36,314 nucleotides of DNA, taken from positions 1 through 36,314 of IMG/VR virus record IMGVR_UViG_3300030107_005355; one strand, 5' to 3'. Under the pieces are notes generated by a model. That model was not told the DNA's origin and searched no databases. It was given only the letters and a program-made list of their open reading frames with translations. Shown one piece after another: positions 2,964 through 34,173 of this stretch (the first letter of the stretch is position 1; every line of letters begins with the position of its first letter). The stretch is from a virus. The translations under genes were made by a program, and so were the position numbers.

Positions 2964-4118
2964 ATGGAAGAAAACAAAGAACAAGTAGTCGAAGAGACTA
3001 CACAAGACAACATTACAAAAGATGATGTTATTAAAGTAAACTTAGATAAACCACCAACACCAAAAGAAGAAAAAGATGAAACTAAAGAAGATAACGCTGA
3101 CGACAGCGGAGTGGTTGCAGAGCCTGAAGATGCCGAGTCCACACAAGAACAAGAAGAAATACAACCGGAAGCAGAAACACAAGAAGCTCCAACGCTAGAA
3201 GAAATAACTGAAGATTCTACTGAAGAAGAGGTTGCAGAAGTAGAAGAGCAGGTTGAAGAAGCAGTTGCACAAGCTGAGGCTACTGGAAAACCATTACCAG
3301 AAAATATTCAAAAATTAGTAGATTTTATGGAAGAAACTGGTGGTGATATAAACGATTATGTAAAGCTAAATCAAGATTATAGCAAGTTAAATGATAACGA
3401 TGTTTTATATGAGTATTACAAACAAACAAAACCGCATTTAACAAACGAAGAAATTAACTTTCTTATGGAAGACTCTTTCTCTTACGATGAAGAAGTTGAC
3501 GAGGAAAGAGATGTACGAAGAAAAAAACTAGCATTAAAAGAGCAAGTTGCCAGTGCTAGAAGCCACCTGGACGGGCAAAAGTCCAAATACTATGAAGAAA
3601 TTAAAGCTGGTTCAAAGCTTACGCCTGAACAACAAAAAGCTGTAAACTTCTTTAATAGATACAACAAAGAGTCAGAAGCAAATGAAAAAATAGTAAAAAA
3701 GAACTCTGAAATTTTTACACAAAAAACTAATAAAGTTTTTAACGACAAGTTCAAAGGTTTTGAATACAACGTCGGTGATAAAAAATACAGGTTTAATGTA
3801 AACAACGCTGAAGAGATTAAAACAACTCAAAGTGATATAAGTAATTTTACTAAAAAGTTTTTAGATAAAAATTCTACATTATCAGACGCTAAGGGTTATC
3901 ACAAATCTTTATTTACAGCGATGAATGCTGATGCTGTTGCAAAACATTTTTATGAACAAGGAAAAGCTGATGCTATGAAAAATAGTGTTGCTAAAGCCAA
4001 AAACGTTAATATGGATCCAAGACAAAGTCATGGAACCGTTGAAGCGGGCGGAATAAAAGTAAAAGTGTTAGGTGATACTTCTTCTGATTTTAAGTTTAAA
4101 ATAAATAAAAACAAATAA
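2964..4118 (+). CDS. Scaffold-like acidic head assembly protein
   Basis: A 384-residue protein lying between portal and major capsid genes, where tailed phages keep the scaffolding protein. Residues about 1-110 are extremely acidic and low in complexity (many EE, QE, TEE runs), then a helical, Lys/Glu-rich body follows to a basic tail (FKFKINKNK). Acidic, helical, charged composition is typical of scaffolds, which guide capsid assembly and then leave the prohead. No protease gene or cleavage site is obvious next to it. The leader is 27 bases of nearly pure A/T with no Shine-Dalgarno. Assignment is by position and composition only; a head decoration or core protein is the alternative. Confidence 0.6.
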   Translation: MEENKEQVVEETTQDNITKDDVIKVNLDKPPTPKEEKDETKEDNADDSGVVAEPEDAESTQEQEEIQPEAETQEAPTLEEITEDSTEEEVAEVEEQVEEAVAQAEATGKPLPENIQKLVDFMEETGGDINDYVKLNQDYSKLNDNDVLYEYYKQTKPHLTNEEINFLMEDSFSYDEEVDEERDVRRKKLALKEQVASARSHLDGQKSKYYEEIKAGSKLTPEQQKAVNFFNRYNKESEANEKIVKKNSEIFTQKTNKVFNDKFKGFEYNVGDKKYRFNVNNAEEIKTTQSDISNFTKKFLDKNSTLSDAKGYHKSLFTAMNADAVAKHFYEQGKADAMKNSVAKAKNVNMDPRQSHGTVEAGGIKVKVLGDTSSDFKFKINKNK

Positions 4119-11900: not shown

Positions 11901-14900
11901 GCGTTCTTTTTGTAGGTGCTCATGATAGTAAATATACAGATTCAACTAACACTACTTTACGTGGAAAATATCCTTTTGAAAACGGTTTACCAGTTGTAGG
12001 TCAAGATACTTTATATATATCATCTACTGTTATGGAACGTACTTTATTAGATAATTTTCATAAAAAACATAACTCTCCAGATGCTGAAAGTGAGACTAAC
12101 GATGGTGGTGGTGGTGGTAGTAAATCTGTCAACAGTCCTTTATATATAAGAATAAGACAACAGGGCTTAGATTTTTTAACGGTAGATCAAACAGCTTGGT
12201 ATGAAGTAGATAATGTTGTAAGAACTAAAAAGTCTGATGCTACTTCTAGCCCTGCTGAAAGTGATAATAAATATATTATAAAATTAAAAAAGAAGTTAGG
12301 TGATGACGCGGAGTTTACTTATAGTAAAACAGCTCATCCTGCAGGTATTAATGGTAATAGAAACTTTTTAAGAAATAGATCTTCTGGAAACACTGATGTG
12401 AATACATATAGAATAAGCGGTGGTGGTGGCTATAGTGATTATTTAGTTTTAGACATAGCACAAGAAATAGTTCAAAATAGATCTGTATTTCAAGGAAGAT
12501 TTTTTGTAAAAATACTTAGAGACGAATACATTGATAGAGTTATAGTTCAACCAAATATTGAGCAATATAGAACTGTTGCTGTAGCTGAGTGTGGATATAT
12601 AAAAGATTTTGATTATGAAGATCCTAGTAGTGGTATTAGTAAGTCAACCCATAATGACGGTATAAACCATATAAATGATTATGGCTTTAACGGTGCGCCA
12701 GGAGGACTAGCTACACAATATACAGACACAGCTAGTGAATACTTTACAATAACTACTAATTTTAACTGGAACATAAATAATATTTTAAATTCATCTTTTG
12801 GAATTCATAACGCTAAACCTGAAACGCCTTATAATGAAAATGTTTATTGGGGACATCATGTTTGGAGAAAAATAAATAACAAACTAAAAGACTTACATAC
12901 TGAATCAAGATGGGTTATTGACGAGGCTTTTGCCGCTGGAGAAGAACCGCTTTGGGGTAGACATAGTTTTAAAAAAAGATACGAAAAAGCATATAAACCT
13001 ACTTCAAACCCATTAATTGCTCAATTACCAGCAATTTATCAAGGTGATCAAAATATAGGAACAACTAATTATGGAGGTTATAATTATCTTAGTTCTAATA
13101 CATCTTCTATATCTCATAATAGAAATAGCATGTGGGGTAATTTTGTTAATAGTAATGGCACTTATTATAATAGTGGTACTACCACTGGTGGTTATGGTGG
13201 AGGTTTAGATAAAGGAGATGACACTTATTCTTATGAATATCACACAACAGGTCTTGGTGTAACTGATTTTACAATAGATTTATCTTACATTGGACCTGGA
13301 AAAATTAATAAACAAGCACACGGCGCTAATGGTAGCGTTGCAGATTGGCATGAGCGGCCTTATAGTTTAAATCCAATAATTATAACTAGTAAGTTTGTTA
13401 AAGACCTTATAGAAAATAATTATTATCATGGAAATTTTCAAACTAGAAATTGGGTAGACAATTGGAAAATAGAAGGTAGATTCGCTGATTCCAATGAGTC
13501 AAAGGCAGAAATTTTTGGTCAAAATTTAAGACCTGGTAAGTTTTTAAGATTTAAAAATGACCCAAATAAAATTGTTTATGAAATAGTAAATGTAAATAAA
13601 TTTTATAAAGTAAATTATTCTGAAACTTTTCATGGTAAAAATGAATATCCATTTTTTGATTTATCTATGATTCCAGGTGGTACACCTGCGCTTACATACG
13701 ACGATTATTTAAAAGTAGCTGAAGTTTGGCAAAACTACGCACACTTTAATAGAAGAATAACATATAGACTAACATTAAGAGCTCCTGATGGTGGTGTAAT
13801 AGGTACTGATGGTTTAGGTAACGCGGGTGGTTACGATCCTATTGGTAATCCTACGGCTGTTGCGGCTCCAACTGCTAGTGATAAATTAGTAATAGCATCT
13901 AACGACTATAATTGTCCTATAGAAATTGTTGAAAAAGAAATTATTATAAATGATAACGATGTAGATTTTACAGAAGATGCAGCAATTTTTGAAACAGAAC
14001 CTAAAGAAACTGCTGATTTAAATATTTTTCATGAAATAAGTGATACTTTACCTGTTAATTTTTTTGGAGAAAGTGGTTATGCTTTTGCTCCAGTTGGAAC
14101 TTTAGTTTCTACAACTACAACAGGTAGTTTTCCAAATCCTATATTGCCATTGCCATCAAATAAGCCTGCTGAAGTTGTAAGTTGGGAAGATAATATAGTT
14201 AAAATAAATACAGAAGTTGCTCAAGATTATCTAACTGTTAACAACATAATAAAGTTTTCAAGATTAGATGGTAGTTATACTACAGCTAAATTTGGCGGTT
14301 TAGTAAATTCTGAAACTATTAATTATACAGACCCACTTACAGGTTCTGTTTCTAGCATAACAGTAAGTAAATCTTTTTATATAAGTCCACGTAGAGAATC
14401 TGTTTCATATGGTTTAAGCTGGCATAATTGTTATTCTTTTGGTAACGGTGTAGAGTCTAGCTCTATAAGAGATGTTTTTAATTCACCATCGTTGGATAAA
14501 GGTCCTAGAGTATCTACTACACTTGAAGAGGGTTATGAAGTAGAACAAAGAAAATATGGTTTAATATATTCTGGTATATACAACTCTAACTCTGGAGTTA
14601 ATAATTTAAATCAATTTATTCAAGCTGAAAAAATTACAAAAGAAATAAATCCTAGTTATGGTAGTATACAAAAACTACACGCTGGTTGGGGTCAAAATGG
14701 GGATTTATTAGCTTTATGTGAAGATAGAGTTTTAAAAATATTAGCAAATAAAGATGCTTTGTTTAATGCTGATGGTAGTACTAATTTAACTGCTACTAAA
14801 AACGTTTTAGGATCAGCAACACCTTATTCTAGTGAATTTGGTATATCTAAAAACCCAGAATCTTTCGCCTCAGAATCATTTAGAGCATATTTTACAGACA

Positions 14901-17179
14901 AAGTAAGAGGTAAAGTTATTAGACTTTCAAGAGATGGTTTAACTCCTATATCTGACGCTGGTATGAGTGATTGGTTTAAAGATAATTTAAAAATATCAAG
15001 AACTTTATTTGGTAGTTATGATGACAAAAAAGGAGAGTATAATATTACTTTACAAGGAGATGAAATATCAAAAACCATATCTTATAAAGAAAACGTAAGA
15101 GGCTGGGTTAGTTTTAAATCTTTTGTTCCTGAAAACGCTATTAGCTGCGCTAATGAATATTACACTTTTCGAAGTGGTAAACTTTGGAAACATCACGACG
15201 AAAGCGTAGACAGAAATACTTTTTATGGTGTTTTTGATAATTCAACTGTAACCGCTTCTTTAAATGATGCACCTGGTATTGTAAAATCTTTTAATACTTT
15301 AAATTACGAAGGTAGTAATTCTAAAATTAATTTTAACATTGAAGAATATATTAATTTAACACCAAGAGATGGTTGGTATGTAGATAATATACATACAGAC
15401 TTAGAAAAAGGTAGCGTAAATAATTTTATAGACAAAGAAGGTAAATGGTTTAGCTATTTAAAAGGAAAAGACGTAGCAGTTACGGGTAATATGAGTATAG
15501 TTATTAATGATGACAATAGCTCACTTTTTGATCAAAGTAGCTTTGCAATACAAGGTTTAGGTATTTTAAATAACACAAGCTCTCCTAGCGCTGTGTTTGG
15601 TTGTACAGATGTTACAGCGTTGAATTATAATTCATTAGCAACTATTGATAATGGAACTTGTTTAACAGGTAATATAGGTTGTACAGATGCAACCGCGAAT
15701 AATTATGATTTAGCGTTAGCTCCAACCGTTGAAGATGGTAGTTGTGAATGGTATGGTTGTACAAATCCAAACGCAATTAACCCAACTAATTTTGGTCCAA
15801 CCGCTACCTCTTATGAATTATTATATCCAGGATCTATAATAGATAATGGTAGTTGTGTTACAGCTAATTACGGGTGTACAGATCCAGTAATGTTTAATTA
15901 TGATCCTAATGCTAATATTGATGATGGAAGTTGTGTTCCAATTATAAACGGCTGTGTAGGTAGACAAAATTTCTCCGGGAATTATATTTTTGCTACAACA
16001 GCTACTAATTACCAAGGACCAGGAGTTGGAGTAGCAAACACAGACGATGGTAGTTGCGAATTTAATTTTTGTAGCGAACCTGGTGATGTAAATTACAACG
16101 TTGACACTATTAATCAAGTTGGTTTTTATCAAGATCCTGTAACTGCAGCTGTTACCACTCAATACATCTTTAATAATCTACTTCAATTAGTACATACTTT
16201 CTGTGGTAGCGCCACTTATTACGCTTGTTTAGATCCAGGTTTTAGTAACTTTAATGCTGGTGTACCGGCTAATGTAACTGCTTCACCTTGTGATGGTGGT
16301 GTTCCAGGTTGTGATAATACACCTGGTAATGAGTGTACAGGACCTGGAAATGGAGTAGCTTGTTGCGAAGGGCCTGTTTCTTCGTTGTCTGCAGGTTGTT
16401 TAAATCCTAACGCACCTAATGGTCAAGGGCTTGGAGTTGGTGTTTATTTACCTGATTGTGTCGGTGCAATACCAAACCAAACTTTAGGTGCGCATCCAAA
16501 CTACGGTAATGAAACTTGTTGTCAGCAGTATGGATGTGTTAACGATAGTACTGCTGCTAACTACATAGATGTTAATCTAGCTCAAAATCAATTTCCTGCT
16601 GGTAACGCTAACGCTGGACAACCAACTCATGTTCAAGGTACTGGTGGTTGCAATGGCACGGGATGTTGTTACGATGTACTTGCTTATCAATGTGATGTTG
16701 ACGGTTTTGTAGAAGCTACAACAATAACAGGTTTAAGTAGCTCAGATATTATGAATAACCCACAGACTTATCCTAACGATCCTGTTAATAATGTTATTCA
16801 CCCAACTACTAATTCAACAGGCTCTTGGGTAGATAATGCTTACGCGGTGGATCTTGTAGCAAGCAACTTATGGGAAGGATTAGAAACTGGCGATGGTTGT
16901 ATCGGTGGTTGTACACAACCACTAGATTGTAATTATAATTCACAAGCTACTTGGGATGATGGTTCATGCTCAGGTACTTATAATGTTGGACCTAGTAAAT
17001 TTGCCTGTATAAGCGGTGGAGGAAGTTGTACTCAAATTGGTCCTTGTCACCCGCTTTATAACACAGCAGATGCTTATAGTACTCCTGCTGCTTGTTTAAA
17101 TGGTTCTTCTGGTTGTATTCAATCTGCAGGTGGTGGCGGATTAAGTAGTGGTGGTAGTATAACTGGTACCGGTGGTTAA
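8906..17179 (+). CDS. Giant tail (nozzle/stabilisation-type) protein with C-terminal Cys-rich repeats
   Basis: A 2757-residue protein starting 3 bases after the adaptor stop. The N-terminus (KNTFTGGKMNKDLDERLV, then YIDAMNVQVSTSE and GTVQNILGN) is the pattern I remember from tail stabilisation/nozzle proteins of marine short-tailed phages. Residues to about 2220 are beta-rich with Asn/Asp/Gly-rich loops, including a Gly5 run at 1067-1071 and another Gly4 near 1170. A propeller-like core with KLHAGWGQNGDLLALCEDRV (about 1920) and SESFRAYFTDKVRGKV follows. From residue 2232 the chain changes to cysteine-rich GCTD...NY...DDGSC repeats and ends in a Gly/Ser tail. The repeats resemble those of secreted Flavobacteriia proteins. 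The likely role is the tail hub plus receptor contact. Confidence 0.65.
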   Translation: MPEIKNTFTGGKMNKDLDERLVPKGEYIDAMNVQVSTSENSDVGTVQNILGNSLGCPNDFLPVNSYTVGSISDESNDNLYWMVSGDPFGDSAANLSQNINLQAPINLSDQIVRKTTDGCERVFVDKYGFSAVNTSTNDDNIIEGISTEIFNQIQVGTEVTGVDSFGNSSNTASVTSISTPDPYDAIFDADPSSSNVTQTFFADPNVNPAVKIGNKILIPAIMGDAASAMPTASTSWSAAADFIYITHFTGTLSGLIGETINLFYNDNALSQTYQITNATNANLTIAGLGISAVKVTLDNNLPINLANSLNNPSPSTWGVSSPTHFFETYGANQNNIVASITQTVTVNNNLFNGNIYFYDYNTGNISYDVTNFAVGDIINIVPISNQVGGLLNCKINNINPVDNSVTVEDLNGNPIIPFQVGGFINGVAVPEYGQILITGENKVFLNTDLILSSGFENGLSSYQALLFKNPRVLNYQHGQIITGINIVDDMLFWTDNRTEPKKININSSIEGTIQYPFPLTQTRLINPSQSIGYANNIPVKEKHVTVIKTPPLSAPILEMVGERKGNSYGEVNYNFSGVNNDSQVILNIFSITSSPLNYEVNDILLLKSFEIDSSFPVTDYDIRVVVKEKTSSSTFVCDILSIDEELSFTSDDFSCDLDKSYEKLYKLKFPRFSFRFKYKDNEYSSFGPFSEPAFMAGDFNFKPNSGYNLGMENKLKELTIKQIVPGNIPEDVKQIDILYKESDSPNVYIVDEIKPSDQYWFDNSYKIKQETIKSVVASNQLLRAFDNVPKRALAQDVSGNRIIYGNYEQNYNLDDTRVSFTFNLKNRNSGDYKSIKSLRSYQLGVVYSDQYNRQTPVLTDVSGSKSVGKLDSASTNQIEVQLNSNAPSWATYQKFYIKEVSTKYHNLALDRYFDAEDGNLWLSFSSNDRNKIDLDTTLFLKKAYDSNVPETTLEQYKVIDVKNESPEYIRTRKVLLGSVSNEQYSDGSLPRDGLLSGNSVLFVGAHDSKYTDSTNTTLRGKYPFENGLPVVGQDTLYISSTVMERTLLDNFHKKHNSPDAESETNDGGGGGSKSVNSPLYIRIRQQGLDFLTVDQTAWYEVDNVVRTKKSDATSSPAESDNKYIIKLKKKLGDDAEFTYSKTAHPAGINGNRNFLRNRSSGNTDVNTYRISGGGGYSDYLVLDIAQEIVQNRSVFQGRFFVKILRDEYIDRVIVQPNIEQYRTVAVAECGYIKDFDYEDPSSGISKSTHNDGINHINDYGFNGAPGGLATQYTDTASEYFTITTNFNWNINNILNSSFGIHNAKPETPYNENVYWGHHVWRKINNKLKDLHTESRWVIDEAFAAGEEPLWGRHSFKKRYEKAYKPTSNPLIAQLPAIYQGDQNIGTTNYGGYNYLSSNTSSISHNRNSMWGNFVNSNGTYYNSGTTTGGYGGGLDKGDDTYSYEYHTTGLGVTDFTIDLSYIGPGKINKQAHGANGSVADWHERPYSLNPIIITSKFVKDLIENNYYHGNFQTRNWVDNWKIEGRFADSNESKAEIFGQNLRPGKFLRFKNDPNKIVYEIVNVNKFYKVNYSETFHGKNEYPFFDLSMIPGGTPALTYDDYLKVAEVWQNYAHFNRRITYRLTLRAPDGGVIGTDGLGNAGGYDPIGNPTAVAAPTASDKLVIASNDYNCPIEIVEKEIIINDNDVDFTEDAAIFETEPKETADLNIFHEISDTLPVNFFGESGYAFAPVGTLVSTTTTGSFPNPILPLPSNKPAEVVSWEDNIVKINTEVAQDYLTVNNIIKFSRLDGSYTTAKFGGLVNSETINYTDPLTGSVSSITVSKSFYISPRRESVSYGLSWHNCYSFGNGVESSSIRDVFNSPSLDKGPRVSTTLEEGYEVEQRKYGLIYSGIYNSNSGVNNLNQFIQAEKITKEINPSYGSIQKLHAGWGQNGDLLALCEDRVLKILANKDALFNADGSTNLTATKNVLGSATPYSSEFGISKNPESFASESFRAYFTDKVRGKVIRLSRDGLTPISDAGMSDWFKDNLKISRTLFGSYDDKKGEYNITLQGDEISKTISYKENVRGWVSFKSFVPENAISCANEYYTFRSGKLWKHHDESVDRNTFYGVFDNSTVTASLNDAPGIVKSFNTLNYEGSNSKINFNIEEYINLTPRDGWYVDNIHTDLEKGSVNNFIDKEGKWFSYLKGKDVAVTGNMSIVINDDNSSLFDQSSFAIQGLGILNNTSSPSAVFGCTDVTALNYNSLATIDNGTCLTGNIGCTDATANNYDLALAPTVEDGSCEWYGCTNPNAINPTNFGPTATSYELLYPGSIIDNGSCVTANYGCTDPVMFNYDPNANIDDGSCVPIINGCVGRQNFSGNYIFATTATNYQGPGVGVANTDDGSCEFNFCSEPGDVNYNVDTINQVGFYQDPVTAAVTTQYIFNNLLQLVHTFCGSATYYACLDPGFSNFNAGVPANVTASPCDGGVPGCDNTPGNECTGPGNGVACCEGPVSSLSAGCLNPNAPNGQGLGVGVYLPDCVGAIPNQTLGAHPNYGNETCCQQYGCVNDSTAANYIDVNLAQNQFPAGNANAGQPTHVQGTGGCNGTGCCYDVLAYQCDVDGFVEATTITGLSSSDIMNNPQTYPNDPVNNVIHPTTNSTGSWVDNAYAVDLVASNLWEGLETGDGCIGGCTQPLDCNYNSQATWDDGSCSGTYNVGPSKFACISGGGSCTQIGPCHPLYNTADAYSTPAACLNGSSGCIQSAGGGGLSSGGSITGTGG
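15599..16969 (+). repeat. Cys-rich GCTD-type protein repeats in the tail protein
   Basis: Degenerate units of consensus G-C-T-D-x(3)-N-Y-(x)n-D-D/N-G-S/T-C, at residues 2232 to about 2688 of the tail protein. The clearest are GCTDVTALNY, GCTDATANNY, GCTNPNA, GCTDPVMFNY, and the last at GCTQPLDCNY...DDGSC. Spacers vary from a few to about 30 residues; several later units have lost one half. Asp-rich, Cys-paired loops of this kind can bind calcium (thrombospondin type 3-like), which is inference here. DNA copies are diverged, so they are not recent tandem duplications. Confidence 0.8.
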
Positions 17180-19921: not shown

Positions 19922-20818
19922 ATGGCATTTGTAACAGCAGCGTTAATTGGTGGTGGTGTAGCTGTAGCTGGTGGTATAGCTAAGCTTGGTATGTCTTTAT
20001 CTGGTAGAAAAGCTAGAAGAGAAGAGCAAAGAGCAGCAAAAGCAGAGCTACAAAAACGTATGAGTCAATATGAAGCATTAGATACTAGTAATTTAGCGGC
20101 TAATGTGCAAAATACGTTTACAAAAATGGAAAACACTATGGAAGATTTAACTGTTAACCAGCAACAAGCTCAATTTGAAGCACAACAAGTTGCTCAACAA
20201 CAAGCAAATATAATGCAAGATCTTAGTGGTGCCGCTGGAGGTTCTGGAATAGCTGCATTAGCTCAAACTTTAGCAAACCAAGGTCAACTAGCGGCGCAAA
20301 GAGCTAGCGCAAGTATAGGCCAACAAGAAGCTGCTAATCAAAGAGCTGCTGCTGCTCAAGCGGGTCAAATACAAATGGCTGAAAGAAAAGGTGAACAATT
20401 TGCACAAACACAAAGATTAGCTGGTGCTGAAAAATCTAGAGGTTTAGAATATCAAAAAACTGGAACTTTACTTGGTATGTCACAACAAAGAACTGCCGCT
20501 GCTAATAAAGCTACAGCTGAAGCTAGAGCACAACAAATGGGCGCTGTTGGTGGTATAGCTACAGCAGCTACTCAAATGGCTGGTAGCTACATGCAAGCAA
20601 CGTCAAAAGTAAAAGCAGCTGAAGCAATGGGTAAATATAAACCAGGAAGTGAATTAGCAGATGATTTAACAGATGACTCTACTACTTTTGGTACTGGAGC
20701 ATTTGGAGGAAGTGGGTATGGTTTTGGAGGTGATCCTAATCCTGTTTCTGGAAATTTAACATTTAATCCATTTACTAATAAGTTTGAAGAGTTAAAACCT
20801 AAATTTTCTAAAAGATAA
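19922..20818 (+). CDS. Internal virion protein, Ala/Gln-rich helical
   Basis: A 298-residue protein beginning with a hydrophobic segment (FVTAALIGGGVAVAGGIAKL) followed by a basic patch (SGRKARREEQRAAKAELQKR) and a long Gln/Ala coiled coil (QQQAQFEAQQVAQQ and many AQQ/AAQ runs to about 230). A hydrophobic N-terminus plus an extended amphipathic helix fits T7 gp14-type internal core proteins, which are ejected and form a channel in the host envelope. The C-terminal 70 residues are Gly-rich. Position directly before two other large internal-protein candidates supports this. No enzymatic motif is seen. Confidence 0.55.
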   Translation: MAFVTAALIGGGVAVAGGIAKLGMSLSGRKARREEQRAAKAELQKRMSQYEALDTSNLAANVQNTFTKMENTMEDLTVNQQQAQFEAQQVAQQQANIMQDLSGAAGGSGIAALAQTLANQGQLAAQRASASIGQQEAANQRAAAAQAGQIQMAERKGEQFAQTQRLAGAEKSRGLEYQKTGTLLGMSQQRTAAANKATAEARAQQMGAVGGIATAATQMAGSYMQATSKVKAAEAMGKYKPGSELADDLTDDSTTFGTGAFGGSGYGFGGDPNPVSGNLTFNPFTNKFEELKPKFSKR

Positions 20819-22297: not shown

Positions 22298-25200
22298 ATG
22301 TTAGAACAATTATATAATGGCTTACTTCAAGATGATTATATTAGTATTTCTTTTGAAGAGTTCCAAAACAAATTTAAAAACGATCCAAATTACAGACAAA
22401 AACTACACGCTGGCGTTGTAGAAGATGGTGATTTTAGTGGTGACTATAACACTTTTGAAAATAAGTTTATGGGAAAGCCACAAGGTTCTCCGGAGGTGAC
22501 TCAAGCCGAAGAGCCAATCGTTACGGAGTCAGGCTTGGACGTTGGTTCTTTGGGTTTACCAGAAACAACTGAACAAGCTGTTGTAAATTTATTTGATATA
22601 AATAAACGTATTAATAAAGACCATGAAAAAGTAAAAAATAAATTAGCTGAAGAATATTTTAACTTAGATAATTTTAAACAATCAAGAAGAAAAGTGCCAG
22701 GTGGCGGTGCTATTAATTTTAGAGGATATGTTAGGTCGGAAGAAGAGGATTTAAAAAGTTGGTTTGGAGAAGAAAAATATAAACAATACGTACGTTATAA
22801 AGAAACTGGTGTTTTTGATTCTTCTAAAGTAGAAGGTGCTGTTTTACAACAAGCGGTAGATCGCGTTAAAAAAGAAGAGGCGGAGCAATATATAAGAAGA
22901 ATAGATAATGAAGATTTAAAAGAAGATACAAAAAAAATTATACAAGACGGTATAATTAATGTGTTTGAACCCGAAGATATTGATTCTGAAGGTGAAAACT
23001 GGCTTCAATTATACACAAATGCTTTAAAATCTGATAGAGCTAGAGACAAAAAAATAAAAGAATTAGGTGGTATTAGTATTTTTAGAGTTAGAAAACAAGA
23101 CGAAGAAGTTATGAAACTTCAAGCTCAAGAAAGTGAAGCTGAAAAAGTACTTGCACAATATTTTAAAACTAAGCTTGATGATTATAAAATAAAATCTTCT
23201 GATTGGAATACCGAGCATAATGAATTTTTAAAAATAAATAACAAGTACGAATCACAACTTAATAACATAAAAGCAGAGTTAAACGCTCTTGGCTATGTTG
23301 ACGAATACTCCTCTAGGGATAAAATAATAAAATATAATAGACTGTTAAAGCAAGGAGAAGAAATTGCTAAAAAGTTTCAATCAGAACTTAGTGAAAAAGG
23401 TATTGATTACAATGATTTAACTTTAAGAGCACAATTGTTAAGAGATGGTTTTGAAAAAATAACAGGTAATTATAATAAAGTTAAAGATTCTAGCACTATA
23501 GCTAAAGCATTGGCTTTAGATTACGGTTTATTAAATAATGTTAATTTAAGTTTTGAAACTGGTTTTGCTGAAATGGGAACTATGCTAACTGGAACTTTAA
23601 AAGGTTTTGCTTGGACAGCTGACAAACTTGATGGAACTATAGATGCTATAATAAACCCTTATGGTAAGTTAAGTGATGTTGATTGGACTGGTAAAATAGA
23701 TGAAACAACTGGCCAAAGAGTATATGAAGATTCTAATGAAGAGTTTATGAGTTATTGGAGAAACTTACACGAAAGTGTTATTGACTACAATGAAAGTTTA
23801 AAAAACTATAAACAAACTGCTCTTCCTTTAAACATTGATTTTGACGATGTTAACATGAATAATATTGGTTCTTGGGCAAATCAAGCCTTAGGTAATAACG
23901 CTTTTAGCATCGCCGCCGCTTTAACATATGGAGGTGCTATTAGAGCTGGCATGAATGTTCCTAAAGCAACTAAAGTTTTAAGTGGTACTTTTTTTGGTCT
24001 TGAGTCTGGTGCTAAACTAACGCACATGGAAATTGATCAAAGAAAAGCTTCTGAACAAATTACTAAGCTGCAAGAATCTTTAGCTTTTGCTAAAACAGAA
24101 GGTGAAAAAGCAAATATATTAAATGAAATTGATTATTATGAAAAAGCACTTAGCGCTACAGAGCTAGACAAAGCTTTTTCTTCAATTATGTATGGTAGTA
24201 TTGCAACTTATGCAGAACGCATGGGTACTATGAGGACAATAAGAAATTTAAATAGAATGTCTCCTGCCACCGATAGATTAACTATAGTAAACACTTTGAA
24301 AGGAGCTGGAAAATTTGGTAAGGGTGTTGGTGTAGAATACATGGAAGAATTTTTAACTCAGGTTGGTCACAATTTAGTTGATGTTACTGTTTTAGATCAA
24401 AACAAATCTTTATTAGCTGGTGTTGATAACAATTTTAACGCTAATGTAATATTTTCAACAATGGCTATATTAGGACCATCAACCTCTATGAATGCTTATA
24501 ATACTATTAGAAGTGAAGTTATAACACAAGGCGAAATACTTGAAAATAGAAAACGTAGAGATCAAATAATAGAAATAAATTCTGCTTTACAAGCAGATCA
24601 AGAGTCTGGTTTTAAATTATTAGATCCTGATCAAAGAAAAACTCTTGAAATGGATAGTAAAAGAATAATGAGAGAGGCTGCTTTAATAGATTCTTATACT
24701 ATGGCAAAAGTTGCTAACATGACAGCTTCTGAAATTAAGCAATTATTTGCTCTTAATCAAAAGAAAAGAGATTCTTTTAATAAATACAAAAACTTAGGTG
24801 CATCTAGCGCTTATGAAAAATCTAGTGACGGTTATATTAAAAAACAAAAAGAAAAAATTCTTAACGAAATAAAAGATTTAAACTCTCAAAGAGATAAATT
24901 AAGAGATAGTCCAAGTAGAAGAAGACAAAAAACTATAGAGGCAACTTTAAAAAACGATGAAATACAAGCAGAAACTCAATTTTTCCTTGGTAAATATCAA
25001 GGTGCTGTTAACATTGTAAAAGGATTAGCTGGTAAAGTACAACAATTTGGAAAAGTAAACGAAGATGGAACTATTGATCTAACTGATTTAGAAAAGTATT
25101 TAGATAAAGCAATAAAGTCTGGTAAATTAAAAGACGTATATGTAAAAGGTGTTTTAGTAACAGCTGAACAACAAAAACAAGAATATTTAAAAGGATTTAG

Positions 25201-28200
25201 AGAAGGTAATCCTGCAAGTTTTTTAGGTAATGATGTTATTTTAGTAGAACCTAATGTTATAAGAGAAATAAATAACGCTGAAACTAATTTAGAAAGATCT
25301 ATAGTGGCTTATTCTCCTATTCACGAACTACAACATATAAACGATATTAAAACTGGTTTAGTAAAAGATAATAACATTGTAGAATCTCAAAAAGCGGTTG
25401 TAGAAGGAATACAAACAGAAATAGAAACTTTATACAAACAAGGTAAAATAAAACCAGAAGACTATAGAGTTTATCAAGAAAGAATGGATGGTTATACCAA
25501 AGCTAATAACAATACTGTTGATTTAATGGAGCTTTTAACAATAACTGGAGAATTAAAAGACGCTGGTGTATTAAATGAAAATTCTACAAGTTCTCTGCTT
25601 TCACTTAAATTAATGTTTAATCAACTTTCTAACAAGTATTTTAAGAAAGGTGATATGTTTTTTAAACTTAGCACTACTGATGACGTACTTAGATATATAG
25701 ATAGTTTTCAGCGTAGTACTAGAGCACAAACATTAGTTTTAGGTCCTGAAGAACAAGCAAAAGAAGTTAAACTTTCTAGATCATTACTTTCAGATATAAA
25801 CAAACTTATACCATCTGATGTAAAAACAAAAAAACAATATGACGAATTATTATCTAATCCTAGAAAAAATAAAGAAATATTTGAATCAATAACTGAACAA
25901 GGTGGTATTATAAATAACTATATTAGATCAAAACAAATTACTAAAGAAGAAGGTGATCAAATTATTCAAAACGTAACAGATAGAGTTCTTGGTTTTAATC
26001 CTGACGCAAAAAGAGCTGATGGCACAAAAGTTGGTATAGAAGGTTTTGGTGAAAGAATATTTGCTGATACAAGGTTTGGTAAACTAGATGCTAAAAAAGC
26101 CCTTGCTATCGAAGGAAAAAAAGAAGGACAAACTTTAAGAATAGATGCCGCTAAAAGAACAAAAGAAGGTGAAACAACTTTTGATATAAAAGATACTGAT
26201 GTTGATACTGAAACGCAAACTATTGAAACAGAAGATATTTCACCAGCTGCACAAGCTAGAAAAAAAGATGAACAAGCCAAAGTAGAAATACAAAAAGAAT
26301 CTGCATTTAGAAAAGCTATAGGTATTGAAACTGGTAGTAAAATATATAATGATATTTTAGATGGTGCTCGTAAAGCTTTATTAAGAGCTTACGAGGCTGG
26401 TACATCTGCTAGAAACATACAAAGAAAACTAAGAGACGAGGCTAATGTATATTTGTTTAAAACAGTTAAAAACTTTTTAGGTACTAAGCAATATATTAGT
26501 AATTTAAAAAAGTTTAGAGAACCTATAATGAAAGTTATGTTTACTTCTGATTTAGTACAATTAGAAAGAAACGTACCACAAGATGAAAGAGTGTTTACTA
26601 GATTTGTTAAAAAACTTACATCAAAACAAGAGGTTCAAGACGCTGTTAATCAAAATTTATTACCACCCGATGCTTTAAATACCATAGATAAAGGAACTGC
26701 TGTTAGTTTGTACGAAAAAGCAAATCCAACAGAAGCTCAATTTATGTCGTTTTTTGATATACCCGCTTTTAATCCAGTAACTAAAAAAAGATCTGGTAAA
26801 CGTGGTACTAGAAAAGATCAACTAGCTAAATATATGGCTGGTGCTTTGTCTTATGATGCCACACTTCAAGTTGCTCAAGAACCAGCAGTTATACAACGAA
26901 GAGCTGATTTAGCTGAATTAAACGACACGCAAATACTTAAAGATGATTTACAAACTTTAGCTTCTGCAATTAATAGAGATCCCAACGTTAAATTTTCTCA
27001 AAAGAAAAACAAAGTAACATATAAACAGAAAATGATAAAAGTAAAAAGCGGTCAGGTTGTAATAGATCTTGATCAAGCTGAATCTGTTTTAGATGATATT
27101 TTTAATAACAATGATAGGATTAATTTTTACAGAAATTTAACTGACAAACAAGCTGATAAGTATGGTGGCAAGTTTGTTGTAGAAGCAATAATTGACCAAT
27201 ATGATTCTAGAGGTATAGAAAGAATAGATAACAAAACTATAGTTAATTTTATAAAAAAACGTAAAAGAAAAAGAGATAAAATTAGCAATGTTTATGAGCA
27301 GTTTTTTATTGAGTTAGCTGATGCTGCTGTAAAACAAAATAAACTAGGTATTAATGTAAATCAATATGTAAGAGAAGGTGGTAGACCTGATATTCATTTT
27401 CAGTTTGAAGGAAATTCTATTGGCCTTGAAATAAAAATGGATAGCTCTAGAGGTGTTTCTTATACTTGGAAGTTTAATGATACATCAACTAATCCAAATC
27501 CTATAGATACAAACGCTACTGAAGAATTAATTAATAAAATAAAAAACACGGCAAAAGATAATATTTTTAGTGGTATTGATTTTTTAAAAGGTGTTAAATC
27601 TTATAATTTGTCAACACTAAAAACTTTTAAACACATGTTTAATCATAGTGTAAAAGTAACTGCTAAATATTTAGAGTATCATTATACTACTAAAAAAATG
27701 CCTGAGTATTTTATAAATATTGGTGATTCTGGTTTGTTTTATATGTTAGGACAAGAAGGAGATGTTAACAATGCAGAAGTTTTACGTATTGCAAACAAAT
27801 TAAATATACCTCGATTACAAGGCGAGTTTGATTTAATATCAAGAATGGATATAGGTAAAGTTAGAACTGATGGAACTAGGCCTACTAATATAAGAATAGA
27901 GCCAAGGATAGATTCTAAGTCAAGCAAAAATTTTCCAGAAAAATCAGATTTAAACTTATCAAACAAAACCGATATGAATAGTTTTGTTAAAGAATTAAAT
28001 AGTTCTTTAATAAGAGCTAGTAGAAATAAAAATAGCAAAATATTTAGTAGTGCTGTTAATTTTTCAAGATCTACTAATAAACCAACACAAGGTATTACTG
28101 TTTTAGATTTTGATGATACGTTAGCTACAACACAATCATTAGTTAAGTTTACTAGACCTGATGGTACAACTGGCACTTTAAACGCTGAACAATATGCTAG

Positions 28201-30700
28201 TACTTACGAAAACTTATTAGATCAAGGTTATACATTTGACTTTTCTGATTTTAACAAAGTTGTTAAAGGTAAGTTAGCACCATTGTTTAATAAAGCAATG
28301 AAACTACAAAGTAAGTTTGGTCCTGAAAACATGTTTGTACTAACAGCAAGACCACCAGCAGCTCAAAAAGCTATATTTGACTTTTTAAAAGCTAATGGTT
28401 TAAATATACCTTTAAAAAATATAACAGGTCTTGGTAATTCTACAGCTGAGGCAAAAGCACTTTGGATTGCTGGTAAAGTTGGTGAAGGTTATAATGACTT
28501 TTATTTTGCTGATGATGCGTTACAAAACGTACAAGCTGTTAAAAATATGTTAGATCAGTTTGATGTTAAATCTAAAGTACAACAAGCTAAAGTTAAATTT
28601 AGTAAATCAATGAACAGTGACTTTAATAAAATATTAGAAGATGTTACTGGTATTGACGCTAAAAAACGTTTTTCAGATATTAAAGCTAGAAAACGTGGAG
28701 AGAAAAAAGGTAAGTTTAGGCTTTTTATACCGCCATCACATGAAGATTTTGTAGGTTTATTATACAACTTTATGGGTAAAGGTAAAAAAGGTGATCAACA
28801 TAGAAACTTTTTTGAACAAGCTTTGGTTAAACCTTTAAATAGAGCTTATAGAGAAATAGATACAGCTAAGCAAGCTATAGCAAATGATTATAAATCATTA
28901 AATAAACAATTTGCAGATGTTAAAAATAAACTTAGAAAGAAAACTCCTGATGGTGATTTTATATTTGAAGATGCTGTAAGAGTTTATTTATGGAATAAAC
29001 ATGGGTATGATATTCCTGGTTTAAGTAAAACTGATCAACAAAAATTAGTAGATATAGTAATGAATGATCCTAGTTTGCAAGCTTATACTGAAACTTTAAA
29101 TGTAATATCTAAACAAGAGAAATATGTAGATCCAGGTAAAGGCTGGGAAGCTGGTAATATACAGACTGATTTAATAGATGCTACAGGTAGAGTTGGTAGA
29201 GCAGAATATTTTACAGAGTTTAATGAAAATGCTGATATATTATTTTCTAAAGAAAATTTAAATAAAATTCAAGCTGCATATGGTGCTGATTTTAGAAGCG
29301 CGCTAGAAGACATGTTACATAGGATTAGTACTGGTGTTAATAGACCAAAAGGTCAACATGCTACTACAAATAAGTTTATGAATTATCTAAATGGATCTGT
29401 AGGTACAGTGATGTTTTTTAACGTTAGATCTGCGATATTACAGCAAATGTCTATTGTAAACTATATTAATTTTGCTGATAATAATATATTTGCAGCTGCT
29501 AAAGCTTTTGCTAACCAAAAACAATACTGGGCTGACTTTGCATTTATATTTAACTCAGACATGTTAAAACAAAGAAGAGGTGGTATTGGTACTGATATTA
29601 ATGGCGCTGATCTTGCTCAAGCTGTAGCTGGTTCTAAAAACCCAAGCAAGATGGTTATAAGTTATCTTTTAAAATTAGGATTTACACCTACACAAATTGG
29701 TGATAATATTGCAATTGCTACTGGTGGTGCTACGTTTTATAGAAATAGAGTTAACAAATATATAAAAGACGGTATGAGTAAGAAAGAGGCTGAAGCCGCT
29801 GCTTTTACTGATTTTCAAGATTTAACACAGTCAACACAGCAGTCATCAAGACCTGATATGACATCGCAACAACAAGCTAGTTGGATAGGTAAGTTAGTGT
29901 TAAACTTTCAAAATATTACATCACAGTACAATAGAATAATTAAAAAAGCTGCAAGCGATATATATAATAAAAGAATATCACCACCTTATACCACAAGAAC
30001 TCAAAGTAATTTAGGTAACTTATCTAAGATATTATATTATGGTGGTATACAAAACGTTATATTCTACAGCTTACAAACAGCTTTGTTTGCAGTTATGTTT
30101 GATGATGATAAAGATGAAGATCAAATATTAAAGAAAAGAGAAAGAGTTATACAGGGTACTATTGACTCTATATTAAGAGGTTCTGGTATATATGGTGCTA
30201 TAGCATCTACTTTGAAAAATACTTTAAGAAAGTTTATGGAACAAAGAGAAAAAGGTTATAACAAAGATGAAAGTGCTGTATTAATGGAGTTGTTAAATTT
30301 TTCACCTGTTGTTGGTATTAAAGCTAGACAAATAGTTAACGCTGAAAAAACTATTAATTACAATGAAAATGTTATAAGTGAAATGGAAACCTTTGATGCT
30401 GATAACCCACAGTGGTCAGCGGTTACTAACTATACGCAAGCTTTGACTAATTTTCCAGCAAACAGGCTATATCAAAAAAGTATAAACATGCGTAACGCGC
30501 TTGATAAAGATTATACTAATTTTCAAAGAGTAATGTTTTTTAGTGGTTATACGACTTGGAGTTTGGGCTTAGGTGATAACGAAGCTATAATAGAAGCAAA
30601 AGAAAAAGCCAAGATAAATAAAAAAAATACAAAGAAAAATAAAAAACGATCAACTAGAGAAGAAATTAGAATAAAAAATCTACAAAAAAGTAGAAGATAA
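22298..30700 (+). CDS. Giant internal virion protein with HExxH, PD-(D/E)xK and HAD domains
   Basis: A 2800-residue protein, the largest gene here. Residues 1-55 hold a paired F-E-E-F/T-F-E-N-K-F motif often seen at the N-terminus of such proteins. Helical and hydrophobic stretches follow (about 415-450, 525-575, 690-740). At 1009-1013 HELQH, within IVAYSPIHELQHINDIKTG, is a zincin motif. At 1697-1713 P-D...E-I-K (P1697, D1698, E1711, K1713), in GGRPDIHFQFEGNSIGLEIK, is a PD-(D/E)xK nuclease motif. At 1932-2073 lies a HAD phosphatase with D1937/D1939, T2016, K2053 and D2072/D2073. The end is basic and helical. It probably enters the cell with DNA, as T7 gp16 does (inference). Confidence 0.7.
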   Translation: MLEQLYNGLLQDDYISISFEEFQNKFKNDPNYRQKLHAGVVEDGDFSGDYNTFENKFMGKPQGSPEVTQAEEPIVTESGLDVGSLGLPETTEQAVVNLFDINKRINKDHEKVKNKLAEEYFNLDNFKQSRRKVPGGGAINFRGYVRSEEEDLKSWFGEEKYKQYVRYKETGVFDSSKVEGAVLQQAVDRVKKEEAEQYIRRIDNEDLKEDTKKIIQDGIINVFEPEDIDSEGENWLQLYTNALKSDRARDKKIKELGGISIFRVRKQDEEVMKLQAQESEAEKVLAQYFKTKLDDYKIKSSDWNTEHNEFLKINNKYESQLNNIKAELNALGYVDEYSSRDKIIKYNRLLKQGEEIAKKFQSELSEKGIDYNDLTLRAQLLRDGFEKITGNYNKVKDSSTIAKALALDYGLLNNVNLSFETGFAEMGTMLTGTLKGFAWTADKLDGTIDAIINPYGKLSDVDWTGKIDETTGQRVYEDSNEEFMSYWRNLHESVIDYNESLKNYKQTALPLNIDFDDVNMNNIGSWANQALGNNAFSIAAALTYGGAIRAGMNVPKATKVLSGTFFGLESGAKLTHMEIDQRKASEQITKLQESLAFAKTEGEKANILNEIDYYEKALSATELDKAFSSIMYGSIATYAERMGTMRTIRNLNRMSPATDRLTIVNTLKGAGKFGKGVGVEYMEEFLTQVGHNLVDVTVLDQNKSLLAGVDNNFNANVIFSTMAILGPSTSMNAYNTIRSEVITQGEILENRKRRDQIIEINSALQADQESGFKLLDPDQRKTLEMDSKRIMREAALIDSYTMAKVANMTASEIKQLFALNQKKRDSFNKYKNLGASSAYEKSSDGYIKKQKEKILNEIKDLNSQRDKLRDSPSRRRQKTIEATLKNDEIQAETQFFLGKYQGAVNIVKGLAGKVQQFGKVNEDGTIDLTDLEKYLDKAIKSGKLKDVYVKGVLVTAEQQKQEYLKGFREGNPASFLGNDVILVEPNVIREINNAETNLERSIVAYSPIHELQHINDIKTGLVKDNNIVESQKAVVEGIQTEIETLYKQGKIKPEDYRVYQERMDGYTKANNNTVDLMELLTITGELKDAGVLNENSTSSLLSLKLMFNQLSNKYFKKGDMFFKLSTTDDVLRYIDSFQRSTRAQTLVLGPEEQAKEVKLSRSLLSDINKLIPSDVKTKKQYDELLSNPRKNKEIFESITEQGGIINNYIRSKQITKEEGDQIIQNVTDRVLGFNPDAKRADGTKVGIEGFGERIFADTRFGKLDAKKALAIEGKKEGQTLRIDAAKRTKEGETTFDIKDTDVDTETQTIETEDISPAAQARKKDEQAKVEIQKESAFRKAIGIETGSKIYNDILDGARKALLRAYEAGTSARNIQRKLRDEANVYLFKTVKNFLGTKQYISNLKKFREPIMKVMFTSDLVQLERNVPQDERVFTRFVKKLTSKQEVQDAVNQNLLPPDALNTIDKGTAVSLYEKANPTEAQFMSFFDIPAFNPVTKKRSGKRGTRKDQLAKYMAGALSYDATLQVAQEPAVIQRRADLAELNDTQILKDDLQTLASAINRDPNVKFSQKKNKVTYKQKMIKVKSGQVVIDLDQAESVLDDIFNNNDRINFYRNLTDKQADKYGGKFVVEAIIDQYDSRGIERIDNKTIVNFIKKRKRKRDKISNVYEQFFIELADAAVKQNKLGINVNQYVREGGRPDIHFQFEGNSIGLEIKMDSSRGVSYTWKFNDTSTNPNPIDTNATEELINKIKNTAKDNIFSGIDFLKGVKSYNLSTLKTFKHMFNHSVKVTAKYLEYHYTTKKMPEYFINIGDSGLFYMLGQEGDVNNAEVLRIANKLNIPRLQGEFDLISRMDIGKVRTDGTRPTNIRIEPRIDSKSSKNFPEKSDLNLSNKTDMNSFVKELNSSLIRASRNKNSKIFSSAVNFSRSTNKPTQGITVLDFDDTLATTQSLVKFTRPDGTTGTLNAEQYASTYENLLDQGYTFDFSDFNKVVKGKLAPLFNKAMKLQSKFGPENMFVLTARPPAAQKAIFDFLKANGLNIPLKNITGLGNSTAEAKALWIAGKVGEGYNDFYFADDALQNVQAVKNMLDQFDVKSKVQQAKVKFSKSMNSDFNKILEDVTGIDAKKRFSDIKARKRGEKKGKFRLFIPPSHEDFVGLLYNFMGKGKKGDQHRNFFEQALVKPLNRAYREIDTAKQAIANDYKSLNKQFADVKNKLRKKTPDGDFIFEDAVRVYLWNKHGYDIPGLSKTDQQKLVDIVMNDPSLQAYTETLNVISKQEKYVDPGKGWEAGNIQTDLIDATGRVGRAEYFTEFNENADILFSKENLNKIQAAYGADFRSALEDMLHRISTGVNRPKGQHATTNKFMNYLNGSVGTVMFFNVRSAILQQMSIVNYINFADNNIFAAAKAFANQKQYWADFAFIFNSDMLKQRRGGIGTDINGADLAQAVAGSKNPSKMVISYLLKLGFTPTQIGDNIAIATGGATFYRNRVNKYIKDGMSKKEAEAAAFTDFQDLTQSTQQSSRPDMTSQQQASWIGKLVLNFQNITSQYNRIIKKAASDIYNKRISPPYTTRTQSNLGNLSKILYYGGIQNVIFYSLQTALFAVMFDDDKDEDQILKKRERVIQGTIDSILRGSGIYGAIASTLKNTLRKFMEQREKGYNKDESAVLMELLNFSPVVGIKARQIVNAEKTINYNENVISEMETFDADNPQWSAVTNYTQALTNFPANRLYQKSINMRNALDKDYTNFQRVMFFSGYTTWSLGLGDNEAIIEAKEKAKINKKNTKKNKKRSTREEIRIKNLQKSRR

Positions 30701-32465: not shown

Positions 32466-32876
32466 ATGCCAGGATCAGAAAGACAAAATAATATGTTTGA
32501 AGCATCGCCTTTGGATTTTAAACAAAGAGGTAATCCTTTTGCTGTCACTAGTTGTGGTAGGCGTAGAAATAATAGTGAACCTATTTTTGAAATGGATTCA
32601 CCATTAGAAAAAAGAAGAAAAAAAAGTAACGAACCTAGAAAAACTACAAAAGGTAAAGGTCGTAACTTTAGAACAGTAAAGGAAGGCGCTGGGATGACTT
32701 CTAAAGGAGTTAAAGAATATAGACGTAAAAACCCTGGAAGTAAGCTTAAAACAGCTGTAACAGGAAAAGTTAAACCAGGTAGTAAAGCTGCAAAAAGAAG
32801 AAAATCGTTCTGCGCTAGATCAAAAGGTTGGACCGGTGAAAGAGGTAAAGCCGCTAGACGTAGATGGAAATGTTAA
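32466..32876 (+). CDS. Small Arg/Lys-rich protein (DUF6321-like)
   Basis: A 136-residue protein, highly basic. Residues 1-50 are mixed; from about 50 it becomes Lys/Arg-rich, with FRTVKEGAGMTSKGVKEY, RRKNPGSKLKTAVTGK, VKPGSKAAKRRKSFCARS and a final KGWTGERGKAARRRWKC. The KRRKSFCARS...RRRWKC ending is a pattern I associate with DUF6321-type proteins found in phages and nucleocytoplasmic large DNA viruses, some of them virion proteins; I did not search. Composition fits a DNA-binding, condensing peptide. It begins 2 bases after the thioredoxin-like gene and starts the small basic cassette. Two Cys in the C-terminal core could bind metal. Confidence 0.6.
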   Translation: MPGSERQNNMFEASPLDFKQRGNPFAVTSCGRRRNNSEPIFEMDSPLEKRRKKSNEPRKTTKGKGRNFRTVKEGAGMTSKGVKEYRRKNPGSKLKTAVTGKVKPGSKAAKRRKSFCARSKGWTGERGKAARRRWKC

Positions 32877-32887
32877 AAAAATAAATT

Positions 32888-33136
32888 ATGCCAAATCCAA
32901 AAGTAAAAGATATGCCTAGAGAACAGCAGAAAGCTGTTAAAGCATCTATGGCTGAGCGAGCTGCTATGAAAATGGTAAAGAAAAGTTCAGCATTAAAAAA
33001 AATATCTGCAGCATGTAAAGCTGCTGCTAAACGTAAATTTAAAGTATGGCCTAGTGCTTATGCTTCTGGTTGGGGTGTAAGATGTACTAGAGCTGGTGGA
33101 CCAAGTAAATTTGGTGGAGGTAAAAAGAAAAAGTAA
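32888..33136 (+). CDS. Small basic protein with KVWPSAYAS motif
   Basis: An 82-residue, strongly basic protein. The N-terminal half is helical and Lys/Ala/Met-rich (QQKAVKASMAERAAMKMVKK), then SAACKAAAKRKFKVWPSAYA, then GWGVRCTRAGGPSKFGGGKK. The FKVWPSAYASG element recurs in short phage and large-DNA-virus proteins, and with the Lys tail suggests nucleic-acid binding. Two cysteines flank the Trp-Pro core. The ATG sits in AAATTATG; the stop overlaps the next start (TAATG), so it is likely translated together with the phosphatase that follows. Function not established. Confidence 0.55.
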   Translation: MPNPKVKDMPREQQKAVKASMAERAAMKMVKKSSALKKISAACKAAAKRKFKVWPSAYASGWGVRCTRAGGPSKFGGGKKKK

Positions 33137-33660
33137 TGTTTAAAGATTTTGATATATCAAGTTTTAAAAAACAAAAACCACCTAGTGATAATAGCTTTGA
33201 TACTGATCAAGAAATTAAAGCTCTTAAAAAAATACCACTAAGAAAAGAGTTTGTCAAAAAGTATGATGATATAGAAGCTGCTTTTAAAAAAACAGCTAAA
33301 GAACAAGGCGTAGAAGATTATGATAAAAGTATCGCTAAAAAACTTATAAAAGAGTCTGCACCTGTGATATTAGAACTAAAGAAACATCATAATAGAAAAA
33401 GACCATATGAACTAGATAAAAACTTAAAAGCAATAGTTTTAAAATCTATGAAAACACCTTCGTATCCATCTGGACATTCTGTTCAAGGTATGTTAATAGG
33501 TAATGTTTTAAAAATGAAATATGGTAAATCTGCTTTTATGCAGACTGCAAAAAATATATCTTATAGTAGGAGAGTTGCCCGTGCCCACTATGAGTCAGAC
33601 AGTAAAAAGGGCGATGAAATAGGTAACTTAATGAGTAAACACATAAAAAACAAAATTTAA
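33136..33660 (+). CDS. Soluble PAP2-superfamily phosphatase
   Basis: A 174-residue protein with the complete PAP2/acid phosphatase signature. Motif 1 is K-x6-R-P at K82...R89-P90 (KKHHNRKRP), motif 2 P-S-G-H at 111-114 (YPSGHSVQG), and motif 3 S-R-x5-H-x3-D at S144-R145...H151...D155 (SRRVARAHYESD). These residues bind and attack phosphate; substrates in the family range from phosphatidic acid and undecaprenyl diphosphate to small phosphates. There is no TM segment or signal, so it is a compact cytoplasmic or virion-packaged enzyme. Its setting inside a cassette of DNA-binding-like peptides is the odd point. Start overlaps the previous stop by one base. Confidence 0.9.
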   Translation: MFKDFDISSFKKQKPPSDNSFDTDQEIKALKKIPLRKEFVKKYDDIEAAFKKTAKEQGVEDYDKSIAKKLIKESAPVILELKKHHNRKRPYELDKNLKAIVLKSMKTPSYPSGHSVQGMLIGNVLKMKYGKSAFMQTAKNISYSRRVARAHYESDSKKGDEIGNLMSKHIKNKI

Positions 33661-33661
33661 A

Positions 33662-33895
33662 ATGAAAAAACCAATGAAAATGGTGAAAAAAGCACCTGCA
33701 AAAATGGCAAAAAAATCACCTGCTAAAAAAAGCACTAAAGGATTAGAAGCTTTAGCAAAAGCAAACAATATGAAGCTTACGCCAATGGCAATGAAAAAAG
33801 CTGCTATGAAACTTAAAAAAGATGGTATGAAGATGGTTAAGAAGTCAGCTATGATGATGAAAAAAGCCGCTGGTATGAAGATGAAAAAGAAGTAA
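33662..33895 (+). CDS. Lys/Met-rich tiny protein
   Basis: A 77-residue protein with 27 Lys and 15 Met by direct count and almost no acidic residues. It has KKAPAKMAKKSPAKKST, a short leucine/alanine helix (GLEALAKANNMKLTPMAM) and then (K)KSAMMMKKAAGMKMKKK. The PAKK-type repeats recall histone H1 tails and bacterial nucleoid proteins. The Met density is unusual and unlike the neighbours. Starts 1 base after the phosphatase stop; its own stop overlaps the next gene by one base. DNA compaction in the head is the leading guess. A codon-level illusion is unlikely because its frame is the only long one and overlap arrangement is preserved. Confidence 0.6.
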   Translation: MKKPMKMVKKAPAKMAKKSPAKKSTKGLEALAKANNMKLTPMAMKKAAMKLKKDGMKMVKKSAMMMKKAAGMKMKKK

Positions 33896-34173
33896 TGTAC
33901 GTTCAGAAGAACAATCCTATAAAGAAAAAGCAAAAAGGCGGTGGCACACGTAAAACGTGTTTGCCTGCCGCTAAAATTGCTAGCATGAGCAAAAAAGAAA
34001 GACAGCGTTTAGTTTCGGCTAAACAAAAGTCTGGTAAAGCTGGTAAATATAGACGTTCTTCAAAAACAAACGTAAAAGGTGCTCGTAAAAAAGGCGCCAC
34101 ATTAAGAGACTGGTTTCAAAAAGAAGACTGGAGACAAGTTAATAATCCTAAAAAGAAATGTGGTGAAAAATAA
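33895..34173 (+). CDS. Small basic protein with CLPAAK and LRDWFQKEDW motifs
   Basis: A 92-residue protein that is basic throughout, with TRKTCLPAAKIASMSKKERQ, then KYRRSSKTNVKGARKKG and ATLRDWFQKEDWRQVNNP, ending KKKCGEK. The Trp/Asp pair near the C-terminus and the two Cys (at CLPAAK and near the end) are conserved features of short basic proteins I recall in marine phages. No enzymatic motif. Its ATG shares an A with the preceding TAA. It belongs to the same cassette of basic peptides; a virion nucleoprotein role is inferred from composition and place. Confidence 0.6.
   Translation: MYVQKNNPIKKKQKGGGTRKTCLPAAKIASMSKKERQRLVSAKQKSGKAGKYRRSSKTNVKGARKKGATLRDWFQKEDWRQVNNPKKKCGEK

Follow-up and report, generated by a model that had tools for sequence, protein, structure and literature searches.

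Polyproteins of eukaryotic RNA viruses carry an embedded protease and repeated sites at the seams between their modules, and the sites and the protease co-evolve. The protein described here differs from these in that it is encoded by a dsDNA tailed phage, is a probable virion cargo protein and has a metalloprotease as its candidate processing enzyme. Among phages, Iyer et al. (2017, PMC5512222) described MPTase domains in polyvalent proteins and suggested that these proteins process themselves, whether ahead of packaging, inside the head or in the host. Those proteins are likewise giant multi-enzyme phage proteins with an embedded HExxH motif, but the paper gives no cut-site motif, whereas here a co-evolving tag stands at each seam; the cargo and protease of our protein are also too diverged for the Pfam models used there (PMC5512222). 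N4 gp50 is another giant podovirus protein with an HExxH domain (residue 2228; the C1 domain of PMC12633501). Unlike the present protein, it has no tag series (a single FSR) and carries RNA polymerase as its cargo, and this vRNAP is packaged unprocessed with its HExxH domain (PMC5512222). P1 DdrB also has an HExxH domain and is processed before packaging (PMC5512222), but its HExxH lies at the C-terminal end and it has no FS[KR] tags. Prohead-protease maturation in T4, phiKZ and SPN3US similarly uses a short repeated cut motif in head proteins (PMC10052503); there, however, a separate protease serves many head proteins, while the tags described here are nearly confined to one protease-bearing protein. 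The literature covered on such proteins, which included few subscription papers and no bioRxiv preprints, mentions no tags, cut sites or tag-protease co-evolution. As far as we found, the new elements here are the seam tags and their co-evolution with the protease, self-processing itself having been proposed earlier (PMC5512222).

We analyzed the whole 36,314-nt stretch of the IMG/VR virus record IMGVR_UViG_3300030107_005355 (hereafter the window). Its structural module is podovirus-like, with portal, capsid and virion structural proteins recognized by PHROGs. The portal is akin to those of phages of Flavobacterium, Cellulophaga, Maribacter and Tenacibaculum, which makes a marine flavobacterium the probable host. 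The giant protein, of 317 kDa at full length, is mapped in Table 1. The positional counterpart of its gene in phage phi18:3, gp123, was detected in virions by MS/MS, and the N-terminal region is the only part that the cultured Cellulophaga giants have in common with giants of the window's family. Elsewhere in the window, a run of small, very basic, K/M/A/P-rich proteins with a histone-like look was found at 32466-34173, the product of 33136-33660 resembles a PAP2-type phosphatase as judged by eye from the motifs KRP, PSGH and SRRVARAHYESD, and GCTDxxAxNYNxxAxxDDGSC-type repeats are present in both the 8906-17179 and 34394-36313 proteins.

Table 1. Gene and modules of the giant protein in the window (aa, residue of the giant protein)
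Feature	Position	Strand	Basis
Gene of 2800-aa giant protein	22298..30700	+	Translation; relatives; final large gene, closing the structural module
N-terminal region, aa 1-900, tag-free	22298..24997	+	Strong tag before HExxH in 0/61 giants
Zincin-like metalloprotease domain (putative), ~aa 910-1142	25025..25723	+	68-copy alignment; invariant H,E,H,E (31 copies); confident AlphaFold core
HELQH active-site motif, aa 1009-1013	25322..25336	+	Sequence, alignments
E1078, probable third zinc ligand	25529..25531	+	97% of copies; invariant in 31-copy alignment A6
FKLS 1122-1125, look-alike within protease domain, not a tag	25661..25672	+	Relatives: FKLN, LQIN, IKLK, IQLK
Tag 1, VKLSRS 1157-1162, past protease domain	25766..25783	+	Low-confidence linker; relatives KPKFSKT or STSFSKG
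Exchangeable module, aa 1163-1563	25784..26986	+	In ~20/65 relatives
Tag 2, VKFSQ 1564-1568	26987..27001	+	Matching relatives 20 to 3 beyond tag; then low-confidence linker
PD-(D/E)XK-like nuclease module, ~aa 1590-1905 (PDIHF...GLEIKM)	27065..28012	+	Motif by inspection; folded in model
Tag 3, VNFSRS 1920-1925, ahead of HAD	28055..28072	+	FS[KR] within 50 aa upstream of HAD, 35/62 giants
HAD-type hydrolase module, ~aa 1930-2095 (DFDDT)	28085..28582	+	DxDxT motif; DUF2608 E 2.7e-4; weak HAD match
Tag 4, VKFSKS 2099-2104, past HAD	28592..28609	+	F, S nearly fixed, neighbours variable; pLDDT <50
Conserved C-terminal domain, ~aa 2110-2760	28625..30577	+	~60/65 relatives

The chain combines several enzyme domains, namely the protease motif, the HAD and, by motif only, the nuclease-like module, and an AAA/zeta-toxin kinase was found in relatives. 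Hardly any domain could be named with Pfam, NCBIfam, PHROGs and PADLOC. The PD-(D/E)XK-like module had no Pfam match, and for LPD-type accessory domains the window giant gave no match and two relatives gave marginal LPD14 matches. Remote forms aside, no RNAP family was found in the window giant (Pfam, PHROGs) and no RNAP occurred among the listed Pfam families in the other giants scanned.

The initial annotation had singled out five strings in this protein as recurring tags at domain boundaries and possible protease sites, and all five are found at the residues given (FKLS 1122, VKLSRS 1157, VKFSQ 1564, VNFSRS 1920 and VKFSKS 2099). The placement at boundaries holds for four of them, with 1157 after the HExxH domain, 1564 before the nuclease-like module, and 1920 and 2099 flanking the HAD, but fails for FKLS 1122, which belongs to a stretch of the HExxH domain, xLxTxxDVLxYIxSF, that relatives conserve without keeping these four letters. 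In the AlphaFold models, tag 1157 marks the edge of a low-confidence stretch directly after the protease domain, tag 1564 abuts a 24-residue low-confidence linker, tag 1920 lies between the nuclease-like and HAD modules at a pLDDT of ∼61, and tag 2099 is inside a stretch with pLDDT below 50. Along the window giant, the number of matching relatives falls directly past tag 1564 (Table 1), and at tag 1920 it climbs from 33 to 61. These four are real seam tags.

We compared about 100 related giants. FS[KR] was found just past the HAD in 41 of 62 giants and within the 50 aa before it in 35, against a mean of 3.4 and a maximum of 11 giants for random mid-cargo windows, and in 60 of the 62 a tag-like site was present at least once, be it in the cargo, ahead of the HAD or past it. 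BLAST homology ended within 15 aa of tags in 277 of 3745 cases, compared with 72 at shifted tags and 121 at random F, S or K residues of the same region. A common site thus recurs at the module seams, as in a self-processing polyprotein. Strong tags in 61 giants were confined to the part C-terminal of HExxH, with none in the 49,509 aa before the motif and 108 in the 111,263 aa after it. A cultured relative with the protease, Flavobacterium phage vB_FspP_elemoA, has a giant (QMP84709) with HExxH at 1543 and MMFSRS at 3509.

The presence of tags also follows the protease. No strong tag was found in five independent lineages of giants without an HExxH domain (L108, L124, phi38:1, phi18:3 with phi13:2, and Panino), whereas 65 of 90 giants with the domain had one (Fisher p = 0.0025). 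This comparison is limited by the non-independence of related sequences and by the shorter length of those protease-less giants that are cultured. This control set is small because searches with the cultured protease-less giants as queries returned their own near copies or nothing. A strong FS tag is missing from the remaining 25 of the 90 protease-bearing giants, of which only a part carries the alternative tag described below. Across seams, tags of the same protein were more alike than tags of other proteins there (1.858 versus 1.472, z 5.6), and near-tag likeness persisted with one protein per 50% cluster (z 2.7, p 0.008); more distant flanks, each taken as a single block, fell short of significance (z −1.0 and 1.2), and z was 1.7 (p 0.04) for a block that mixed distal positions. 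A partial Mantel test gave p 0.003 for the full set and 0.10 after redundancy removal. Tag type co-varies with the embedded protease, although one of the two covariation tests weakens once redundancy is removed. In L043 and L064, FSKASD is common to the tags before and after the HAD, a hint of matched tags within one protein.

A natural switch of tag type was found in L151 and L155, whose HAD seams bear [SA][KR]S[IAM]x[YF] in place of FS tags. When all giants were ranked by this pattern, L141 came out at the top beside these two, and the protease domains of the three form one clade (support 99/96). The HAD domain of L141, in a region starting at about aa 2330 of its giant, is 95–96% identical to those of L051 and L029, both of the FS-tag or an FS-like type, and the C-terminus of the L141 giant is closest to L036 and L039, while both HAD-flanking tags are of the L151/L155 type and match its own protease. 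By sequence comparison, L141 is a natural domain swap, and the position of an FS-type HAD between switched tags indicates that tag type follows the protease rather than the cargo. It is well supported at the sequence level that tags would be recognized by something co-inherited with the protease. The earlier proposal that the tags are protease sites read by the HExxH domain itself is likewise well supported as a prediction, given that strong tags occur only C-terminal of HExxH, are missing without the protease, follow its type and mark homology seams. The refuting condition set along with it, tags lying off the boundaries in relatives, was examined and left the proposal standing. Its further suggestion, release of the enzymes after entry, would be one of several timings, as cutting may take place ahead of packaging, in the virion or in the host.

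The co-evolution data show recognition, not cutting, and the tags might be docking motifs: a groove, located in the N-terminal region or the HExxH region, would bind them and fold the chain back for packaging or tail threading. The N-terminal region was co-inherited with the protease in L141, L151 and L155 and is thus still a possible tag reader, and N4 vRNAP stays whole despite its HExxH domain (PMC5512222). On the other side stands the conservation of the HExxH domain, which was alignable across all 68 copies found and in which the sole invariant residues in 31 diverse copies are H, E and H of the motif and the downstream E, that is, the HExxH and downstream Glu ligand expected of a zincin. 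This signature predicts an active zincin, although the fold is only putative because fold searches with both AlphaFold models yielded no match that could be trusted, including 2ejq_A (Z 3.9, covering the HExxH part), a negative outcome that does not make the folds new. Invariance of the catalytic residues alone in a very diverged domain fits an active enzyme, and the presence of tags in a flexible linker at each module seam is more in keeping with cut sites than with docking motifs. We consider docking unlikely.

The tags might instead be cut by a different enzyme, either a phage head protease or a host protease. Precedent comes from the T4-like and phiKZ-like head proteases, which cut many proteins at short motifs (PMC10052503). 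In the window, however, the portal, scaffold and capsid have no FS[KR] or LS[KR], and in the loci of the giants FS[KR] tags are rare in other ORFs and nearly confined to the giant protein. With tags almost absent from the remaining virion proteins, the site sharing expected of prohead-protease substrates was not found, and since tag type tracks the embedded protease, any other cutting enzyme appears very improbable.

Module exchange might also have left the tags behind as neutral linkers or as recombination seams, as their coincidence with homology breaks would suggest. The serines of the tags are, however, encoded by AGY and TCN codons about equally. This mixture argues for selection on the peptide and rules out a shared DNA repeat as the tag origin; tag conservation is at the protein level, not the DNA level. 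Neutral seams are also at odds with the joint shift of tag place and type within one protein and with the lack of tags before HExxH, and we regard them as very improbable.

With regard to the tag sequence, the pattern [VIF][KRN][FL]S[KRQT], chosen post hoc, occurs 5 times in the window giant against 0.2 expected by shuffling. A motif-free search of 66 giants, counting distinct contexts, placed FSKS, KFSK, MFSK, FSRS, FSKT and VKFS among the top-enriched 4-mers, and the tag consensus is [VI]-[KMN]-F-S-[KR]-[ST]. As judged from these sequences, F-S-[KR] is the better core, with V-K as common but variable flanks. Between HExxH and HAD, FS[KR] was found in 66 distinct contexts, compared with 11 for SF[KR], 16 for [KR]SF, 18 for F[KR]S, 21 for S[KR]F and 38 for [KR]FS, the last of which overlaps the tag itself; upstream of HExxH there was no enrichment (12 contexts versus 5–16 for the permutations). 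Another 23 giants, which are more diverged and have both the HExxH and the HAD landmark, served as a second set. Their cargo contained 25 FS[KR] occurrences, compared with 4 upstream of HExxH, and the margin of enrichment was smaller because [KR]FS was equally common there. Chance agreement with a post hoc pattern, of which FKLS 1122 is an example, is rejected by the unbiased enrichment, the permutation controls and the second giant set.

Loose-pattern matches at 415, 1885, 2314 and 2666 were not counted as tags because the core is missing or because they lie inside the conserved C-terminal domain. The match at aa 2314-2320 (29237-29257), ILFSKEN, appears as IIFSKEN in many relatives and is tag-like, yet within that domain. 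A neighbouring virion-module protein (19922-20818) has the tag-like C-terminus KPKFSKR, which we rejected as a packaging tag since no counterpart was found in relatives' loci.

Given that the tags stand at seams and co-evolve with the embedded protease, we consider it probable, at about 70%, that the giant is a phage polyprotein cut at its seam tags by its own zincin-like protease. The N-terminal region and the embedded zincin-like metalloprotease lead the chain, followed by exchangeable cargo modules (an unnamed module, the PD-(D/E)XK-like nuclease and the HAD hydrolase) and then by the conserved C-terminal domain. Every seam has a flexible linker bearing the tag F-S-[KR]-[ST], usually preceded by V/I-K/M/N, which the protease would read and cut, freeing pieces of about 131, 46, 41, 20 and 80 kDa in the window phage. 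The step from recognition to cleavage we infer, together with the bond cut, action in cis or in trans, and timing in assembly, in the virion or in the infected cell.

On balance, we lean towards the broader reading that a widespread group of marine phages has an RNA-virus-style polyprotein with plug-in cargo cassettes between cut tags matched to the embedded metalloprotease, in which a captured enzyme, such as that of L141, would become releasable once flanked by the resident tags. Since 2017, what HExxH domains do in the polyvalent and ejection proteins of phages has been a matter of guesswork. A predicted substrate grammar is now available, together with a specificity switch and a domain swap that both occur in nature, and this opens the question to tests with peptides. 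If the reading is true, the tags would show where modules begin and end in giant phage proteins that otherwise defy annotation, and would help to find new phage-delivered enzymes.
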